A DNA stretch of 33,977 bases from Sideroxydans sp. (GTDB lineage Bacteria; Pseudomonadota; Gammaproteobacteria; Burkholderiales; Gallionellaceae): NCBI GenBank assembly GCA_020053195.1, contig JAGVNQ010000078.1, positions 1 through 33,977 on the forward strand. The letters are read 5' to 3'. A program made the translations under genes and the position numbers. Of this stretch, positions 3,127 through 27,293 are shown one piece after another. The notes beneath the pieces were generated by a model. That model worked only from the letters and a program-made list of their open reading frames with translations. It was not told the origin of the DNA and searched no databases. The stretch's first letter is position 1. Every line of letters begins with the position of its first letter.

Positions 3127-3138
3127 CGAAATTCAAAA

Positions 3139-3308
3139 TTAGCCACAGAGAACACAGAGGCCACAGAGAATGACGAGATTGACCAACATTTCGCAATTCC
3201 ATTTGAAGAGAGCCGTATGCGATAGGCATAAAAAACCAGTAAAGTTCGGACTCTACTTCTATTTCCAATCGCGATTTTCTCTGTGATCTCTGTGTTCTCT
3301 GTGGCTAA
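3139..3308. repeat. TIR element with CACAGAGA-rich arms (family B)
   Basis: TTAGCCACAGAGAACACAGAGGCCACAGAGAA ... TTTTCTCTGTGATCTCTGTGTTCTCTGTGGCTAA inverted arms; related arms at 26967-27093 with an unrelated core. Confidence 0.85.
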
Positions 3309-3328
3309 TCGATTTTTCAAGGTTTAAC

Positions 3329-4276: not shown

Positions 4277-5011
4277 ATGAGCAAAACCACCCATTTCGGA
4301 TTCAAAACCGTCGCCGAGGAAGAAAAAGCCAAACACGTTGCGGGCGTGTTCACTTCCGTCGCCAGCAAATACGACATCATGAACGACCTCATGTCGGTCG
4401 GCCTGCACCGCGTGTGGAAGCCGTTCGCCGTGGGCTTGGCCAATGTGCATGAAGGCCAGCGCGTGCTGGACGTGGCGGGCGGCTCGGGCGACATGACCAA
4501 ACTGTTCCTGAAAAAAGTCGGGCGCAGCGGACAAGTGGTGCTGACCGACATCAACAACGCCATGCTGCGCGTGGGTCGCGACCGCATGATAGACAGCGGC
4601 AGCCCCACTCCCACCGCGCAATGCGATGCCGAAAAACTGCCCTTCCCCGACAACTATTTCGACTGCGTCAGCATCGCCTTCGGCCTGCGCAACGTCACCC
4701 GCAAAGATGCCGCCCTGCGCGAAATGAAGCGCGTGCTCAAACCCGGTGGCCGCGTGATTGTTTTGGAATTTTCCAAAATCGCCAAACCTCTGGAAAAAGC
4801 CTACGACCTGTATTCCTTCAAACTGTTGCCCAAGATGGGCGAACTCATCGCCAATGATGCCGACAGCTACCGCTACCTCGCCGAATCCATCCGCATGCAT
4901 CCGGGACAGGAAGAGTTAAAGCAAATGATGTTGGATGCGGGGTTGGAGCGGGTTGAGTATTTCAATATGACGGGCGGGGTGGTGGCGGTGCATCGAGGGT
5001 ATAAGCTTTGA
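4277..5011 (+). CDS. ubiE: Demethylmenaquinone/ubiquinone methyltransferase UbiE
   Basis: [28 protein letters not shown] and [15 protein letters not shown]...[26 protein letters not shown]. Confidence 0.95.
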
Positions 5012-5550
5012 GGTGGGTTGTAAAAATTCCCATTATTCATTGCTGCAATTCAGTAATTATTCCCGTTATTTGTCTTTTTTCTTTGGCAGGATGTGGAGGA
5101 GTATTTTTTGCTTCTGCTGCGACTTCAGCTGTTACTGTAAATGACATTAAAAGATATTCCTTACCAGATTTAGAAGAAATTGATCGTATTGAGATTCAGA
5201 ATGAAACGGAATTCTCCAGTCGAAATATAGTTCGAGGGGATCTATGCAAAACCGAAGAAATTGCGGATTTGGTAAGAATCCTTAATGACAATCGCGCTTC
5301 GTGGAAAAACCCACAATTAGTGTTTATTCCAAATCCTCCGAAGTTATATTCAGGTCTTGAATTGCGAATTCTTTCCTTTTGGAGCAAGAACAACCTTGTT
5401 CGAGTTGTACATGTATATAAACGAACTCTCATTACCCAACTTGAAACAAAGAATATTATTCGGGAAATTTCTCAGGCTGAATCCGATGTTGTTTACCGCA
5501 TATTGGCAAGCCAGCGTAGCCCGGATGGAATGAAATGTAATCCGGGTTGA
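5008..5550 (+). CDS. Hypothetical lipoprotein, AT-rich, no recognisable family
   Basis: 180-aa ORF with N-terminal hydrophobic segment and LFSLAGC lipobox; lower GC than its neighbours; C-terminus runs into a repeat. Confidence 0.6.
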
Positions 5551-5586
5551 TCTCTCCCGGATTTCGCTACGCTACATCCGGGCTAC
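5516..5586. repeat. Palindromic repeat GTAGCCCGGATG...ATCCGGG-CCCGGAT...CATCCGGGCTAC (family D)
   Basis: Nested inverted repeats: outer GTAGCCCGGAT/ATCCGGGCTAC, inner ATCCGGG/CCCGGAT. Confidence 0.85.
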
Positions 5587-5617
5587 ATATTTTTTTAAAA
5601 CATTAACAGGAATCACC

Positions 5618-5959
5618 ATGACCGCTTTACCCAAATGCCCCAAATGCAGTTCCGAATACACCTACGAAGACGGCAGCAACTATGTGTGCCCCGAGTGCGC
5701 GCACGAGTGGGCTAAGGATGCGCCAGCCGACAGCGGCGAGCAGGCTCGCGTTTACAAAGATGCGTACGGCAATGTGCTGGTGGATGGAGATTCAGTGACG
5801 GTGATTAAAGATCTGAAGGTGAAGGGTTCGTCGTCGGTGGTGAAGGTGGGCACCAAGGTGAAGAACATTCGTCTGGTGGATGGCGACCACGACATCGACT
5901 GCAAGATCGACGGCATAGGCGCGATGCAGTTGAAGACCGAGTTTGTGAAGAAGGCGTAG
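5618..5959 (+). CDS. yjdM: Zinc ribbon protein YjdM (PhnA family)
   Basis: [27 protein letters not shown] and [47 protein letters not shown]. Confidence 0.93.
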
Positions 5960-7229: not shown

Positions 7230-7243
7230 TCACCTCCTCGGGA

Positions 7244-7320
7244 AGGCGCGCCAATAGGCGATCTACGTCATGCACTTGATGGAGATGCCCGTATTTAGCG
7301 GCTTGCGGGCAAGGTGGGTA
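7244..7320. repeat. Rearranged copy of CAATAGGCGATCTAC hairpin repeat (family F)
   Basis: CAATAGGCGATCTAC at 7252-7266, GAGATGCCCGT and GCGGCTTGCGGGCAAGGTGGGTA; intact copies at 23371-23450 and 24279-24355. Confidence 0.8.
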
Positions 7321-14056: not shown

Positions 14057-14103
14057 GTAGGTCGGGTTTCAACCCGACAAGTCGGGCTAAAGCCCGACCT
14101 ACG
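14057..14103. repeat. Palindromic repeat family A, second copy
   Basis: GTAGGTCGGGTTTCAACCCGACAAGTCGGGCTAAAGCCCGACCTACG; reverse complement of the 1876-1921 copy apart from the linker. Confidence 0.9.
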
Positions 14104-18619: not shown

Positions 18620-19038
18620 TGGTTGATGTTGTCGATTCGGCAACGCGCAGCCGGATGATGGCTGGAATCCAAGGCAAGAACACCAAGCCGGAGCTTCTGG
18701 TTAGAAAATATTTTCATGGTCGTGGGCTACGCTACAGACTTCATGCCAAAGAGTTGCCGGGGAAACCGGATTTGGTATTTCCAAAGTACAAGGCAGTTAT
18801 TTTTGTACATGGTTGTTTCTGGCATCAGCATATCGGATGTAAATACGCTTCAAAACCACAAACTAGGACAGAATTCTGGACTCACAAGTTTTCAGAAAAC
18901 GTGAAACGTGATAGCTATCAAATAGCAGCATTGGAAGGGCTTGGTTGGCGAGTATTCGTTGTTTGGGAGTGTGAATTGCTGGAAGGCACTTCAAGGCTGG
19001 AATCTCTGTTGTTGGATATTTCACAGAAAAGGATTTAA
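18619..19038 (+). CDS. vsr: Very short patch repair endonuclease Vsr
   Basis: SRMMAGIQGKNTKPELLVRKYFHGRGLRYRLHAKELPGKPDLVFPKYKAVIFVHGCFWHQH. Confidence 0.96.
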   Translation: MVDVVDSATRSRMMAGIQGKNTKPELLVRKYFHGRGLRYRLHAKELPGKPDLVFPKYKAVIFVHGCFWHQHIGCKYASKPQTRTEFWTHKFSENVKRDSYQIAALEGLGWRVFVVWECELLEGTSRLESLLLDISQKRI

Positions 19039-19042
19039 CACG

Positions 19043-20008
19043 ATGGCACTGATTGCTCTGACATCATCTCCAGATTGGGACTTGCCCTTCTTCAAGGTAC
19101 TTGCCAATAACGATACAGGTGCGGCATCCGGTCATCAAGGCGGAATTGTTATACCCATGGAGCTTCGCCCCTTCTTCCCTGGGCTGTCCGCTGCAACCTC
19201 GCCATGGAACCCGACGACTGACCAGCGGATTGATGCAGACTTATTTGTAGAAAATCGTTTTCTTGCTTCGGTATCTACTCGTTACCAATTTCAAACATGG
19301 GGCGGCACGCGCAGCCCGGAATCGCGCATTACAGATCAGCTTGCACCACTTAGAAATCTTGCACAGGGTGGAGACATTCTGATATTTCAAAGAAACATTG
19401 ATCGGCTTGACAGTTATCGGCTAACGCTCGTCAGACAGTCATCAGGTGAAGTCGATGCACTTCAAGTTCTCGTTGCTGGAAGGCGTTGGGGCATCTTAGG
19501 TGCAGCCAATCCCATGAGCGACGACGAACTTACAACTGCCTTAAATCAAGAACAGCAGCGCGAGTCATCAAACTTCTCACTTACGGATGACGAAGCACTC
19601 CAAGTGGAAAGCAGGGTGTTTAAGATTGCCCGTTCCGTTGCTTTTCGTTTGTCAGTTACAAAGCTGTATGGATTCACCTGCGCTGTTTGCGGTGAATCTC
19701 TAAAATCGCCTCGGGGCATGATGGAATTAGATGCTGCTCATATCGTCCCACGTTCAAGGCTTGGAGCGGATGACGCGCGAAATGGTATTGCTTTGTGTAA
19801 ACGTCATCACTGGGCATTTGATGGTGGTCTTTTTGGAATTGGAAGTCAGCGAGAAATTATCGTTCCCCCTACAGTCCGGCTAATTTCGGCCAATGCTGTT
19901 CTTGCTAATTTCAACGGGAGACCGATTAGAGAGGCATTCCAGCCACATCTACGTGCTCATGCAGATGCTTTAGCTTGGCATCGGGAAAATATCCTATTGA
20001 AGGATTAG
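19043..20008 (+). CDS. Putative restriction endonuclease: EcoRII-N-like domain fused to HNH nuclease domain
   Basis: N-terminus FKVLANNDTGAASGHQGGIVIP resembles the EcoRII effector domain KRLSANDTGATGGHQVGLYIP (from memory); C-terminus CAVCGES...LDAAHIVPRSRLGADDARNGIALCKRHHWAFDGG is an HNH motif. Confidence 0.8.
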   Translation: MALIALTSSPDWDLPFFKVLANNDTGAASGHQGGIVIPMELRPFFPGLSAATSPWNPTTDQRIDADLFVENRFLASVSTRYQFQTWGGTRSPESRITDQLAPLRNLAQGGDILIFQRNIDRLDSYRLTLVRQSSGEVDALQVLVAGRRWGILGAANPMSDDELTTALNQEQQRESSNFSLTDDEALQVESRVFKIARSVAFRLSVTKLYGFTCAVCGESLKSPRGMMELDAAHIVPRSRLGADDARNGIALCKRHHWAFDGGLFGIGSQREIIVPPTVRLISANAVLANFNGRPIREAFQPHLRAHADALAWHRENILLKD

Positions 20009-20021
20009 CTTTGCACGTTGG

Positions 20022-20050
20022 AAAACGTAGCGCGTGTGACTACGTTTTTT
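20022..20050 (+). terminator. Rho-independent terminator after the R-M operon
   Basis: AAAACGTAG-CGCGTGTGA-CTACGTTTTTT. Confidence 0.8.
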
Positions 20051-20056
20051 AGAATT

Positions 20057-20084
20057 AAGCCTTGTGATAAACCTCCGTCCCTTC
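20057..20084 (-). pseudogene. 3' remnant duplicate of thiC
   Basis: AAGCCTTGTGATAAACCTCCG is identical (21/21) to 21303-21323, the thiC 3' end; minus frame encodes GTEVYHKA-stop versus GAEVYHKA-stop. Confidence 0.7.
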
Positions 20085-20120
20085 TCCCTCAGGCGGGGAA
20101 GGGGACGTAAAGGAAAATAG

Positions 20121-21167
20121 ATGAACACTCTGCGCCTTTTTACCGCCAAAAATTTTTCCATTCCCGCCAGCACGTCCTGGTATCTGGCCGACCTTGGCGA
20201 GTTTCGCGGCAAGCAGGAACTCTATACGCAGCAGTCTCCGCAGCGCCTCAAGACCTTGCGCGAGCATGCGCTGATCGAGAGTGCGGTTTCTTCCAATCGT
20301 ATCGAAGGTGTGTCGGTTGATCCTTCGCGGGTGCGCGATGTGTTGGCCGCCCCCAAGCCTTTGTTCCGTGACCGCGACGAGGAGGAGGTGCGCGGTTATC
20401 GCGATGCATTGAAACTGATACACGAAGGCGCTGAACACATGTCCGTGAGCGAGGCGACGCTAAGCGAGCTGCACCGGTTGGCGCGCGGACAAATCTGGGA
20501 TGCGGGCAAGTATAAGGAGAATGACGGCGACATCATTGAGCGTTATGCGGATGGTCGGGAGCGGGTGCGCTTTCGTCCGGTGTCTGCGCAAGGGACTCCG
20601 GCTGCAATGACTGGACTGGTAGCCGATTGGCAGCATTGCCTTGAGGAGCGTTGGGTGCATCCGCTGATTGCGATGGCGGCCTTCAATCTGGATTTCTTGT
20701 GCATACATCCATTCCGCGACGGCAACGGACGTGTGTCGCGGTTGGCGTTGTTGCTTCAGTGCTATCAGTTGGGCTACGAGGCGGGGCGCTATATCAGCCT
20801 TGAGCGCTTGATCGAGGAAAACAAGGAGCGCTATTACGAGACCCTGGAGCAAAGTTCGCAAGGATGGCATGAGGGCAAGCATGATCCGTGGCCTTTCATC
20901 AATTACGTGCTGTCCATTCTGAAAATGGCTTACCGCGAATTCGCCGAGCGCGTGGGCGAGGTGAAAGCGCCGCGCGGCTCGAAAACGGATTTGGTGTTGG
21001 CGGCAATCAACCGATTCACGGGCGAATTTACGGTGGCGCAGGTGGAGCAGGCTTGTCCCGGTGTGAGCAAAGACATGGTGCGGCGCGTTTTGCGCGAGCA
21101 ACAAACCGCCAATGCAGTGGAGTGCCAAGGCCGAGGCCCGGCGGCGCGGTGGAAAAAGAAGGGGTAA
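20121..21167 (+). CDS. Fic family protein (class II-type architecture)
   Basis: HPFRDGNGRVSR catalytic motif; N-terminal SSNRIEG inhibitory-helix motif (S/T-xxx-E-G/N); C-terminal winged-helix-like segment. Confidence 0.95.
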   Translation: MNTLRLFTAKNFSIPASTSWYLADLGEFRGKQELYTQQSPQRLKTLREHALIESAVSSNRIEGVSVDPSRVRDVLAAPKPLFRDRDEEEVRGYRDALKLIHEGAEHMSVSEATLSELHRLARGQIWDAGKYKENDGDIIERYADGRERVRFRPVSAQGTPAAMTGLVADWQHCLEERWVHPLIAMAAFNLDFLCIHPFRDGNGRVSRLALLLQCYQLGYEAGRYISLERLIEENKERYYETLEQSSQGWHEGKHDPWPFINYVLSILKMAYREFAERVGEVKAPRGSKTDLVLAAINRFTGEFTVAQVEQACPGVSKDMVRRVLREQQTANAVECQGRGPAARWKKKG

Positions 21168-21300: not shown

Positions 21301-23204
<1,904 letters not shown>

Positions 23205-23213
<9 letters not shown>

Positions 23214-23290
23214 CTACGACGGCATGACCCGTACAGGTTCAAAGGGACTGTCTCACTCCGCCATCGCGGAGACCCCCAGCGAGGGGCGCA
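23205..23290 (-). ncRNA. TPP riboswitch (THI element) upstream of thiC
   Basis: Minus strand GCTGGGGGTCTCCGCGATGGCGGAGTGAGACAGTCCCTTTGAACCTGTACGGGTCATGCCGTCGTAGGGAAGC contains conserved TGAGA, CCCTTTGAACCTG and CGTAGGGAA. Confidence 0.93.
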
Positions 23291-23370: not shown

Positions 23371-23450
23371 GAGATGCCCGTCAATAGGCGATCTACGTGA
23401 TGCAATTGTTGTAGATCGCCTATTGGCGCGGCTTGCGGGGCAGGTGGGTA
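23371..23450. repeat. Hairpin repeat family F, copy 2
   Basis: GATGCCCGTCAATAGGCGATCTAC-GTGATGCAATTGTT-GTAGATCGCCTATTGGCGCGGCTTGCGGGGCAGGTGGGT. Confidence 0.92.
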
Positions 23451-23476
23451 AATAAAACCAAAAACCGGATTTGTTC

Positions 23477-23872
23477 TCAGCGAATTTCTTCAACCAATTC
23501 CGGGTGCTTGTCCAGAATGCGAAACAGATTCACAACCGCCGCAACCGGTTTGGATTTGCCGTGTTCATAGCGCGAGAATGCATTCACACCTCCGCCTGCA
23601 ATTACGGCGGCCTCTTTTTGCGACAGCTTGAGTTTTTTGCGAATGCGCGCCAGTTCAGCGGACTCTTGTTGGTCAATTTCATCGCGGAATTGTTCCACTG
23701 CCGCCGCATAACGCTTGCCTTCACCCTTGGCGAATTCACATTCGCCGCACGCGGGGCAATGCCAACCTTCCACCGCTTCAACCGTGATTTGCTTGCCACG
23801 GTATTCGACCACCTTGTCTTTATTGCCGCGCACCATGTCGGCCTTTTCGCAATTCAAGCACAAGTGTTTCAT
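23477..23872 (-). CDS. mqsA: MqsA-family antitoxin (zinc-binding N-terminus + HTH)
   Basis: MKHLCLNCEKADM...WHCPACGECEF two CxxC motifs, then LKLSQKEAAVIAGGGVNAFSRYEHGKSKP HTH_XRE. Confidence 0.9.
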   Translation of the reverse strand: MKHLCLNCEKADMVRGNKDKVVEYRGKQITVEAVEGWHCPACGECEFAKGEGKRYAAAVEQFRDEIDQQESAELARIRKKLKLSQKEAAVIAGGGVNAFSRYEHGKSKPVAAVVNLFRILDKHPELVEEIR

Positions 23873-23873
23873 C

Positions 23874-24170
23874 TCATTTCTCCTTAAACTGAATGACGAC
23901 AATTCCGTTTTCTCGCAGCGTCAGTTTGATATAAACCCGCAAGCCCGATTCCAGATCGGCGTGATAAACGTCTTGCCAAATCCGATGATCGGCATGAGTG
24001 GTCATGCTTTTATAAAAATTGTTTTGCCTGAGGCCAAGCACCACGGCAACCGCAGCCTCCGCAGACAGCCCTAAATCGAAAGCGCCATCCAACGCTGTCT
24101 GAGTAAAAGCATCAACCCCGTTGGCCGCAACGATGGTCAGCACTTCGGACAACTGGTAATTGGGCTTCAT
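23874..24170 (-). CDS. mqsR: MqsR-family mRNA interferase toxin
   Basis: LGLRQNNFYKSMTTHADHRIWQDVYHADLESGLRVYIKLTLRENGIVVIQFKEK; alternative start at 24179. Confidence 0.93.
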   Translation of the reverse strand: MKPNYQLSEVLTIVAANGVDAFTQTALDGAFDLGLSAEAAVAVVLGLRQNNFYKSMTTHADHRIWQDVYHADLESGLRVYIKLTLRENGIVVIQFKEK

Positions 24171-24188
24171 CTTTTCCATGACCAGATG

Positions 24189-24205
24189 CTAACCCAATAG
24201 GTTAG
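24189..24205. promoter_or_regulatory. Palindromic candidate MqsA operator
   Basis: CTAACC-CAATA-GGTTAG immediately upstream of mqsR. Confidence 0.7.
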
Positions 24206-24242
24206 TTTGTTCAACGGGGGAAATTGAGTTCGAGCTTGACCG

Positions 24243-24272
24243 CGTGGGCACAAGAACGTGCCCACCCTACGC
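24243..24272. repeat. Hairpin repeat GTGGGCACAAGAACGTGCCCACCCTACGC
   Basis: TGGGCAC/GTGCCCA arms plus outer GCG. Confidence 0.7.
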
Positions 24273-24278
24273 GCTGAA

Positions 24279-24355
24279 GATGCCCGTCAATAGGCGATCT
24301 ACACGATGTGAATGTTGTAGATCGCCTATTGGCGCGGCTTGCGGGGCAGGTGGGT
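24279..24355. repeat. Hairpin repeat family F, copy 3
   Basis: GATGCCCGTCAATAGGCGATCTAC-ACGATGTGAATGTT-GTAGATCGCCTATTGGCGCGGCTTGCGGGGCAGGTGGGT. Confidence 0.92.
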
Positions 24356-24509: not shown

Positions 24510-26876
24510 TTAGACCGCCTTGCCCAGCTTGCGCCAAGTCTCCAGCAGCGTATCGGGATTGAGCGACATGGTTTGAATGCCGGTCTCGACCAGCCATTGC
24601 GCGAAGTCGAAATGGTCGGACGGGCCTTGGCCGCAGATACCGACGTATTTGTCCAGACGGTTGCAGGTGGTGATGGCCATTTTCAGCAGCACTTTGACGG
24701 CGGCATCGCGTTCGTCGAAACGGTCGGCGACCAGGCTGGAATCTCTATCCAATCCCAGTGTGAGTTGGGTCAGGTCGTTGGAGCCGATGGAGAAGCCGTC
24801 GAAGTATTGCAGGAAGTCTTCGGCCAGAAGCGCGTTGGACGGAATCTCGCACATCATGATGAGACGCAGGCCGTGTTCGCCGCGCTTGAGGCCGTTGCGT
24901 TCCAGCGTGGCGACCACATCGCGCGCTTCCTGCACGGTGCGCACGAAGGGGATCATCAGTTCGATGTTGGTGTAGCCCAAGGTTTCGCGCGCGCGTTTCA
25001 TGGCGCGGCATTCCAGCTCGAAGCAGTCAGTAAAGTTTGCCGCGACGTAACGTCCCGCGCCACGGAAACCGATCATGGGGTTTTCTTCCATCGGCTCATA
25101 CACGTCGCCGCCCAGCAGTTTGCGATATTCGTTGGACTTGAAGTCGGACATGCGCACGATGACTTTTTTCGGCCAGAACGCCGCCGCCAATGTTGAAACA
25201 CCTTCGGTGATTTTCTCCACGTAGAACTCTTCGGGGCTGGCGTAACCCGCCGCGCGTTGCAGCACGGCCTCGTGCAACGACTTCGGCAGCTTGTCGTGTT
25301 CCAGCACCGCTTTGGGGTGAATGCCGATCAGGTTGTTGATGATGAATTCCAAGCGCGCCAAGCCCACGCCCGCCGACGGCAATTGCGCGAACTCGAAGGC
25401 CAGCGTGGGGTTGCCGACGTTGAGCATGAGCTTGACCGGAATCTGCGGCAGCTCGCTTTCGCTATGCACCACCACATCAAAATCCAGCTTGCCGTGATAG
25501 ACAAATCCGGTGTCGCCCTCGGCGCAAGACACGGTGACGGTTTCGCCTTCCTGCAATGCGCTGGTGGCGTGGCCGCAACCGACGATGGCGGGAATGCCCA
25601 GTTCGCGCGCGATGATCGCCGCGTGGCAAGTGCGTCCGCCGCGATTGGTGACGATGGCGGCGGCCTTCTTCATCACCGGTTCCCAGTTGGGGTCGGTCAT
25701 GTCGGTGACCAGCACGTCGCCCGCTTGTACTTGATCCATCTCGGCGGTGCTGGCGACGATGCGCACGCGACCTGCGCCAATCTTCTGGCCGATGGCGCGG
25801 CCTTCGACCAGTACCGTGCCGCGCTGATGCAGACGGAATTTTTCTGTGCCGCCCGCTGCCGTTTCGTTCGACTTCACTGTTTCGGGGCGCGCCTGCAAGA
25901 TATACAGCTTGCCGTCCAGCCCGTCTTTGCCCCACTCGATGTCCATCGGGCGACCGTAATGTTGTTCGATGGACACGGCGTACTTCGCCAACTGCAACAC
26001 GTCGGCATCGCTCAAGGAGAAGCGCGCCTGATCGGCGGCGGGCACGGGTTCGATGCGGCAAGAGCGTCCGGCGGAACGCTGCTCGTCGAACACCATGCGC
26101 TGTTGTTTAGAGCCGAGACTGCGGCGAATCACTGCCGGGAATCCGGCGGCGAGCTGCGGTTTGTGCACATAAAACTCGTCGGGATTTACTGCGCCTTGCA
26201 CCACCATTTCGCCCAGACCGAACGAAGAAGTAATGAACACCGCATCGCGGAAACCGGATTCAGTATCCAGCGTGAACATCACGCCGGACGCGCCCAGATC
26301 GGAGCGCACCATGCGCTGTACGCCCGCCGACAATGCCACATCGGCGTGGGTGAAATCTTTATGGACGCGGTAGGAAATCGCGCGGTCGTTGTAGAGTGAA
26401 GCGAACACTTCGCGGATCGCGTGCAGAATGTTGGCGATGCCGTGGATGTTCAGAAAGGTTTCCTGTTGCCCGGCGAATGAAGCATCCGGCAAATCTTCCG
26501 CCGTGGCCGACGAGCGCACGGCAAAACTGCCTTCGCCTTCGGCCACCAGCTTGTCGTAGTGGCTGCGAATTTCATCTTCCAGACGCTTGGGCAACGGTGC
26601 TTCGACGATCCAGCCGCGAATCAAACGACCCGCTTCGGCCAAGGCCGACACGTCTTCCACATTCAGTTTGGACAGCCTATCTTCAATGCGTTTATCCAGC
26701 CCGCCGTGTGCCAGAAAATCGCGGTAAGCCTGCGCCGTGGTGGCGAAGCCGCCGGGCACATGTACGCCGGACGAGCTCAAGTTGGAAATCATCTCGCCCA
26801 GCGAAGCGTTTTTTCCGCCGACTTCCGGGATGTCCGCGATGCCCAGAGATTGGAATGGAATGACGTAAGACTGCAT
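24510..26876 (-). CDS. ppsA: Phosphoenolpyruvate synthase
   Basis: [91 protein letters not shown]. Confidence 0.98.
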
Positions 26877-26966
26877 GATGACTCCTGTTTTGGTTGGGGG
26901 TTAAAAAATTGAATTGATTGAGTTGTTACGACAAATGTGCGGGCGCGAACTTACAAAAAAAACAAT

Positions 26967-27093
26967 TTAGCCACAGAGAACACAGAGCACACAGAGAAGG
27001 CATCGGTATCCCCAACGATCACGGCAGTAGGCAAAAGAACTGATCTTTAATATCCAGCGTTTTCTCTGTGAACTCTGTGTTCTCTGTGGCTAA
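26967..27093. repeat. TIR element family B, second copy (different core)
   Basis: TTAGCCACAGAGAACACAGAGCACACAGAGAA ... TTTTCTCTGTGAACTCTGTGTTCTCTGTGGCTAA. Confidence 0.85.
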
Positions 27094-27107
27094 AAGGTTT
27101 TTAAGGT

Positions 27108-27293
27108 TTAATGTTTCTCTCGCTTGCATTCGTCTTCGCCGCACTTGTGGTTGCCACAACCGCAGCCTTTGGTTTCATCGCGCAATTCGCCGAACTCGGG
27201 GTGGCGCGCGGCGAAGCGATGCGCGGCGGTGCGCACCAGCAGCCAGATCGCCAGCAAGCCCAGCACGATCAGGATGGTTTGCAGGTAAATCAT
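27108..27293 (-). CDS. 61-aa single-TM protein with Cys-rich C-terminal tail, coupled to rnfA
   Basis: MIYLQTILIVLGLLAIWLLVRTAAHRFAARHPEFGELRDETKGCGCGNHKCGEDECKREKH; start overlaps the rnfA stop (ATGA). Confidence 0.75.
   Translation of the reverse strand: MIYLQTILIVLGLLAIWLLVRTAAHRFAARHPEFGELRDETKGCGCGNHKCGEDECKREKH

Follow-up and report, generated by a model that had tools for sequence, protein, structure and literature searches.

REPINs, that is, inverted pairs of REP units, probably act in the bacteria studied here as short homologies at which small segments, often toxin-antitoxin (TA) operons, are integrated, excised or exchanged by homologous recombination. The mqsRA operon found between two REPINs in the window (the whole stretch of 33,977 nt that was analysed) would be one such case. 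An earlier note on this DNA had proposed that the repeats may mark a unit which carries the TA pair and is recombinogenic or mobilisable, and this proposal is supported by single-repeat sites, by recombinant loops and by the REPIN-bounded movement or replacement of other TAs. The support comes from draft genomes in which repeats stand at the junctions, and three of these genomes carry the repeat family: the window genome G000 (3.04 Mb in 345 contigs, 87% complete), the congener assembly G020 (40 contigs, 99% complete) and G049. REPINs rank with the most common repeats in bacteria, and whether they affect the host at all is unsettled. If the proposal is true, they gain a concrete consequence for genome content, while TA modules gain a route of chromosomal spread that needs neither an integrase nor a transposon.

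The repeat pair around mqsRA

The observation in the earlier note that mqsRA is flanked by two direct, nearly identical repeats was confirmed, each repeat being 78 bp long and the pair lying between thiC and ppsA (Table 1). The copies share the same orientation, start 906 bp apart and are identical at 73 of 78 positions (94%). As had also been described, the stem is invariant and the differences are confined to the loop: for these two copies, all five mismatches fall inside the 14-nt loop and the arms are identical. MqsR and MqsA, both recognised by Pfam, are encoded in one operon with the toxin gene first, so that the cargo is a type II TA module of the mqsRA kind, of which only the flanking repeats are unusual. 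An alternative upstream TTG start of mqsA at 23902 is possible. A BLAST search with the 78-mer gave 77 matches in the window genome, both strands of this palindromic element being counted. The wider search for copies that the earlier note had advised thus revealed many dispersed ones, but the note itself had overlooked the third, diverged copy in the window.

Table 1. Features of the window around the REPIN-bounded mqsRA operon.
Feature	Position	Strand	Remarks
Diverged third member of the REPIN family	7242..7319	+	Single, without TA cargo; 76-81% identity
thiC, conserved left neighbour	21301..23172	-	Pfam; 97% identity in G020
TPP riboswitch of thiC	23194..23287	-	Rfam RF00059, 55.2 bits; between thiC and REPIN copy 1
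REPIN copy 1 (thiC side)	23372..23449	+	Two inverted REP units GTAGATCGCCTATTG, loop GTGATGCAATTGTT
Inter-REPIN cargo	23450..24277	.	Missing from the equivalent site in G020 and G049
mqsA antitoxin	~23477..23872	-	PF15731, E 1e-43
mqsR toxin	23874..24179	-	PF15723, E 2e-32
REPIN copy 2 (ppsA side)	24278..24355	+	Loop ACGATGTGAATGTT
ppsA-like PEP synthase, right neighbour conserved in G020 and G001	24510..26876	-	Pfam

Elsewhere in the window, upstream of the thiC site, an HNH/EcoRII-N-like gene and a Fic-domain gene lie side by side (18941-21167), and inverted repeats of the form CTCTGTG(A/T)(A/T)CTCTGTGTTCTCTGTGG are present at two loci (3136-3309 and 26958-27109).

The REPIN family

Each element consists of two inverted GTAG-type REP units with the core GTAGATCGCCTATTG, facing a 14-nt loop. 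The core was counted 267 times in G000, 266 times in G020 and 180 times in G049, whereas a reversed-pattern control gave no match in G000 and 0-1 matches across the three genomes; the repeat pair in the window is therefore far beyond chance. In each of the 31 other genus members examined, the core is present in at most four copies. The REP family appears to have expanded in one lineage of the genus, which named relatives of MqsR identify as Gallionella. In 55 paired elements, a loop of 10-18 nt is enclosed by a left and a right REP arm. In G020, 137 REP elements per 1.12 Mb were identified, corresponding to about one per 8 kb, with a spacing that is near random (exponential). REP spacing was for this reason dropped as a sign of cassettes. 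Direct orientation was likewise set aside as a hallmark of TA-flanking REPs, as it was seen in 6 of 8 such pairs and in 18 of 29 other close pairs, too few to separate the two.

By structure, the window repeats are REPINs, their association with a RAYT being unproven. They resemble the REPINs and GTAG-type REP dimers described by Bertels and Rainey (2011; PMC3116915) and the GTAG families of PMC3733652 in having a GTAG foot, palindromic units paired in inverted orientation across a short spacer, and many dispersed, largely extragenic copies (extragenic placement was judged at inspected loci) restricted to few related genomes. In the terms of PMC3733652, the elements are tail-to-tail dimers, with the GTAG inside. 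They differ from known REPINs in that no cognate RAYT was found and in that they appear here to border exchanged gene cassettes; the word "toxin" appears in neither of the two texts.

Among the 52 REPINs with a 14-nt loop, 49 distinct loop sequences were found, so that loops can serve as barcodes of individual sites. Since loops are effectively site-specific, loop differences between the two window copies are to be expected. Most REPIN copies occupy intergenic sites without a TA, indicating that the repeat is not reserved for cargo. The suggestion in the earlier note that the hairpin is under selection was not supported by these sequences. At the one clearly polymorphic stem position tested across the 55 REPINs, the two sides vary independently (24/16/10/4, Fisher p 0.53). 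Pairing bases occur in only 51% of cases at two stem positions.

The thiC-ppsA site in four genomes

The same locus was compared between four genomes. In G001, thiC adjoins ppsA, with neither a REPIN nor a TA. In G049, one REPIN and then the rnf genes come after thiC, without a TA. In G020, thiC is followed by ccdAB (CcdA and CcdB by Pfam), one REPIN and ppsA, and in the window the order is thiC, REPIN-mqsRA-REPIN, ppsA. Relatives with a single repeat and no mqsRA, the finding that the earlier note had named as a check of its proposal, are therefore present at this very locus in two genomes, one without a TA (G049) and one with ccdAB (G020). The rnf genes that follow thiC and the REPIN on G049 C28 (near 171158) stand there without ppsA, so this stretch is either rearranged or has lost ppsA.

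The loop of the single REPIN in G020 is GTGATGTGAATGTT, i.e. GTGATG followed by TGAATGTT. In the window, the loop of copy 1 reads GTGATG followed by CAATTGTT and that of copy 2 ACGATG followed by TGAATGTT. The left half of the G020 loop is thus that of copy 1 and the right half that of copy 2, and the outer flanks agree, the left one matching the flank of copy 1 (AACCTCTCGGAGATG) and the right one that of copy 2. A hybrid loop with matching outer flanks is the pattern expected from one crossover inside the loop. The argument comes from five nucleotides at one site, and duplication with drift could also give it; duplication followed by five loop changes is the plainer alternative for the loop pattern in the window.

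Under homologous recombination, the incoming molecule would carry mqsRA and one REPIN with the predicted loop ACGATGCAATTGTT. A single crossover within the loop, with the REPIN resident between thiC and ppsA, would then yield the product hybrid REPIN-mqsRA-hybrid REPIN, and the same reaction in the opposite direction would remove the cargo, with a single REPIN remaining. Neither a donor REPIN with the predicted loop nor an mqsRA circle was found in the sequences examined. We infer the circular intermediate, the dependence on RecA, the direction of the event in the window and the role of addiction.

Other REPIN-bounded cassettes

The second case concerns a vapBC cassette shared by G000 C119 and G020 C24. 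Here the homology extends exactly from REPIN to REPIN and no further, and the flanks are unrelated. The loop ACGCACCACATGAT belongs to the right REPIN of the vapBC cassette in G000 C119 and to the left REPIN in G020 C24, and it was found nowhere else in the sequences examined. Its presence on opposite sides is what would be expected if a circle with one REPIN had inserted in both cases, the crossover falling to one side of the loop in one genome and to the opposite side in the other.

Next, eight sites were compared between G000 and G020 (Table 2). They were chosen from G000 TA loci with an anchor in the fetched G020 stretches and are not a random sample; at none of these eight comparable sites do the two genomes have the same TA.

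Table 2. TA content of comparable sites in G000 and G020.
Site	G000	G020
thiC site	mqsRA	ccdAB
C327	parDE	vapBC; beside conserved REP
C211	parDE	REPIN-vapBC-REPIN
C78	PIN TA and others	HI1420-type addiction pair; REPs match on both sides
C198	parDE	HicB- and FitA-like ORFs (read by eye) beside REPIN
C132	PIN, cassette between 40-bp REP copies	Different PIN; beside one REP
C330	parDE and 2-kb REP insert	No TA, one REP
C5	Three-interval array, two PIN TA pairs	No REP, no TA

On G000 C29, brnTA, a PIN_3 toxin gene and a vapC-like gene occupy consecutive REP-bounded positions. On G000 C80 (L110), vapBC lies between 233-bp direct repeats (4367-4600 and 5426-5661; 201 of 233 positions identical), the repeat being composed of the 3' end of the neighbouring VanZ-like gene and a REPIN, and the same site in G049 has one REPIN and no vapBC. 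Cargo of another kind is represented by a PAS-domain protein gene, which two REPs flank in G000; at this place G020 has a single REP.

Further arrangements around REPs were observed. In G020 C9 (L117, 75674-78070), a 682-aa lipoprotein-like gene lies between two REPINs with identical loops, which also share 141 bp of flank (98.6%). At L006 and L008 (G000 C249 and C18), the sequences left and right of the REP have their counterparts on separate G020 contigs or far apart on a single one, as if REPs were breakpoints of rearrangement.

Recombination or transposition

The crossover is inferred to lie in the loop in the window, in the left arm in G020 C24 and in the outer right arm in G000 C119. The crossover point thus varies along the REPIN, whereas one fixed point would be expected of a site-specific enzyme; homologous recombination is therefore favoured over transposition by a RAYT. 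As REPINs are numerous and alike, they are usable as short homologies.

It is doubtful, for the same reason, that a RAYT (TnpA-REP) or another enzyme moves REPIN-bounded segments as single-stranded circles in the manner of IS200/IS605 elements, with the REPINs as ends. Such a mechanism would fit the GTAG-type class to which these REPINs belong, which is tied to RAYTs (PMC3116915, PMC3733652), and Y1_Tnp sequences are present in all three family-bearing genomes (eight genes in G000, ten matches in G020 and four in G049). One RAYT of G020, on C24, even has a REPIN about 0.2 kb upstream. However, this gene sits within its own GGGGACAGACCACGG repeat unit and its orthologues occur in genomes without the REP, so that it does not fit as the cognate RAYT. 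Moreover, the GTAG-type repeats that border RAYT genes in G000 belong to other families (GTAGGTCGGG, GTAGGGTGGAT, GTAGCCCGGAT, GTAGGATGGGT), and no RAYT bordered by a GTAGATCGCCTATTG REP is common to the three genomes. All Y1_Tnp loci in G000 (87% complete), G020 and G049 were inspected, and none was a convincing candidate for the cognate TnpA-REP that the earlier note had advised looking for.

The G000 Y1_Tnp loci (L031-L038) contain several different RAYTs, most of those inspected being bordered by a GTAG-type family of their own. In the window, GTAGGTCGGGTTTCAACCCGAC repeats (1876-1921 and 14057-14102) match those bordering a RAYT-like gene on G000 C228 (L034), so the GTAGGTCGGGTTTCAACCCGAC family appears to have its RAYT. 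A GTAGCCCGGATG-type inverted repeat at 5516-5586 of the window resembles the borders of the RAYT gene on C297 (L036).

Frequency of TA operons beside REPs

The statistics were based on five G020 contigs (1.12 Mb), 250 kb of G000 and 385 kb of G049, together with the best-scoring PIN and ParE loci with 1.5-kb flanks, using simple ORF calls. REPs on both flanks, each no farther away than 1 kb, were found for 10 of the 23 top PIN-domain loci with complete flanks in G000 and G020. The background was 12 of 277 small ORFs (4.3%; PIN loci versus small ORFs, Fisher p 3e-7) and 1.3% of random windows. Against a null in which the REPs were permuted among intergenic positions only, for the 16 PIN and ParE genes on the five G020 contigs, four genes with REPs on both sides were observed against 0.85 expected (P 0.005). 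ParE loci mostly have a REP on one side only, and many TA pairs are one-sided or have no REP. A TA component was recognised by Pfam in 8 of the 19 REP-REP intervals of 350-1700 bp in G020, one of the eight being HVO_A0114, an antitoxin-type regulator, and one a ParE match under the Pfam cut-off; the other 11 contain no recognised TA. The five short REP-REP intervals in the 385 kb of G049 are all devoid of an evident TA, with ORFs read by eye. The link between REPs and TAs may be confined to G000 and G020.

These figures bear on a reading by coincidence and tolerance, in which REPINs and TAs both gather in non-essential intergenic space and no cargo moves. The density of about one REP per 8 kb, its roughly random spacing and the many REPs and short intervals without a TA would agree with this. 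It does not account for the relocated vapBC, the homology of which ends exactly at both REPINs with exchanged barcodes, nor for conserved REPs with different adjoining TAs and the excess over the intergenic shuffle, and it is accordingly disfavoured and considered improbable. Under homologous recombination between REPINs, an over-representation of TA operons among the cargo would be plausible: they take up little space, essential functions do not depend on them, and a cell that loses them is punished.

Misjoining of short-read contigs at repeats might also mimic cassette swaps, and the draft state of the genomes, the repeats at the junctions and the 345 contigs of G000 would make this conceivable. 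It is nevertheless very unlikely, since the exact identities do not exceed about 43 nt, which is below the k-mer lengths commonly used in assembly, the same architecture is found independently in the better-assembled G020, and hybrid loops with separately diverged flanks are not products of misjoining. As regards a composite or MITE-type transposon, the outer flanks of the two window copies share nothing past the 78 bp, and no acting transposase was identified.

Relation to known systems

The minimal mobile elements of Neisseria (PMC3898611) are different whole-gene cassettes located between conserved genes, for which homologous recombination was proposed. Different cassettes between the same conserved genes were likewise found here, at the thiC-ppsA site and seven others, some of which are anchored on one side, and the variable crossover positions seem to fit homologous recombination. 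Unlike in Neisseria, it seems to be the dispersed REPIN that provides the homology here, which allows a cassette to land at REPIN sites elsewhere, and the cargo is largely TA.

In chromosomal integrons, TA operons stand in arrays, with palindromic sites between them close to the 3' ends of genes. The R boxes of attC sites (RYYYAAC/GTTRRRY) are absent from both window copies as read directly, and REPIN copies differ from integron cassettes in being dispersed rather than collected in one array and in having a variable point of exchange. A bolder, integron-like version, in which REPIN-bounded TA circles undergo active excision and enter the chromosome again at other REPINs, the TA pair makes the cell dependent on recapturing the circle and REPINs and TAs spread together, seems to us a long shot. 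The dif (pdif) modules of Acinetobacter plasmids (PMC13141974, PMC6449649) are also small, often encode TAs, are bounded by short repeated sites and are shuffled. They are plasmid-borne and depend on site-specific recombination by XerCD, whereas REPINs are longer hairpins without a fixed crossover point. Full-text searches of a set of open-access papers turned up no description of TA cassettes with REPs or REPINs as their borders.

Five of the mqsRA loci inspected in other Gallionella and betaproteobacterial genomes have no REPINs around the operon. At one of the five (L071), in another Gallionella genome, the 3' end of the gene next to mqsRA is present in 68-bp direct copies on both sides of the operon (4873-4940 and 5735-5802, 82% identity), so that gene ends take the place of the REPINs in the REPIN-mqsRA-REPIN architecture.
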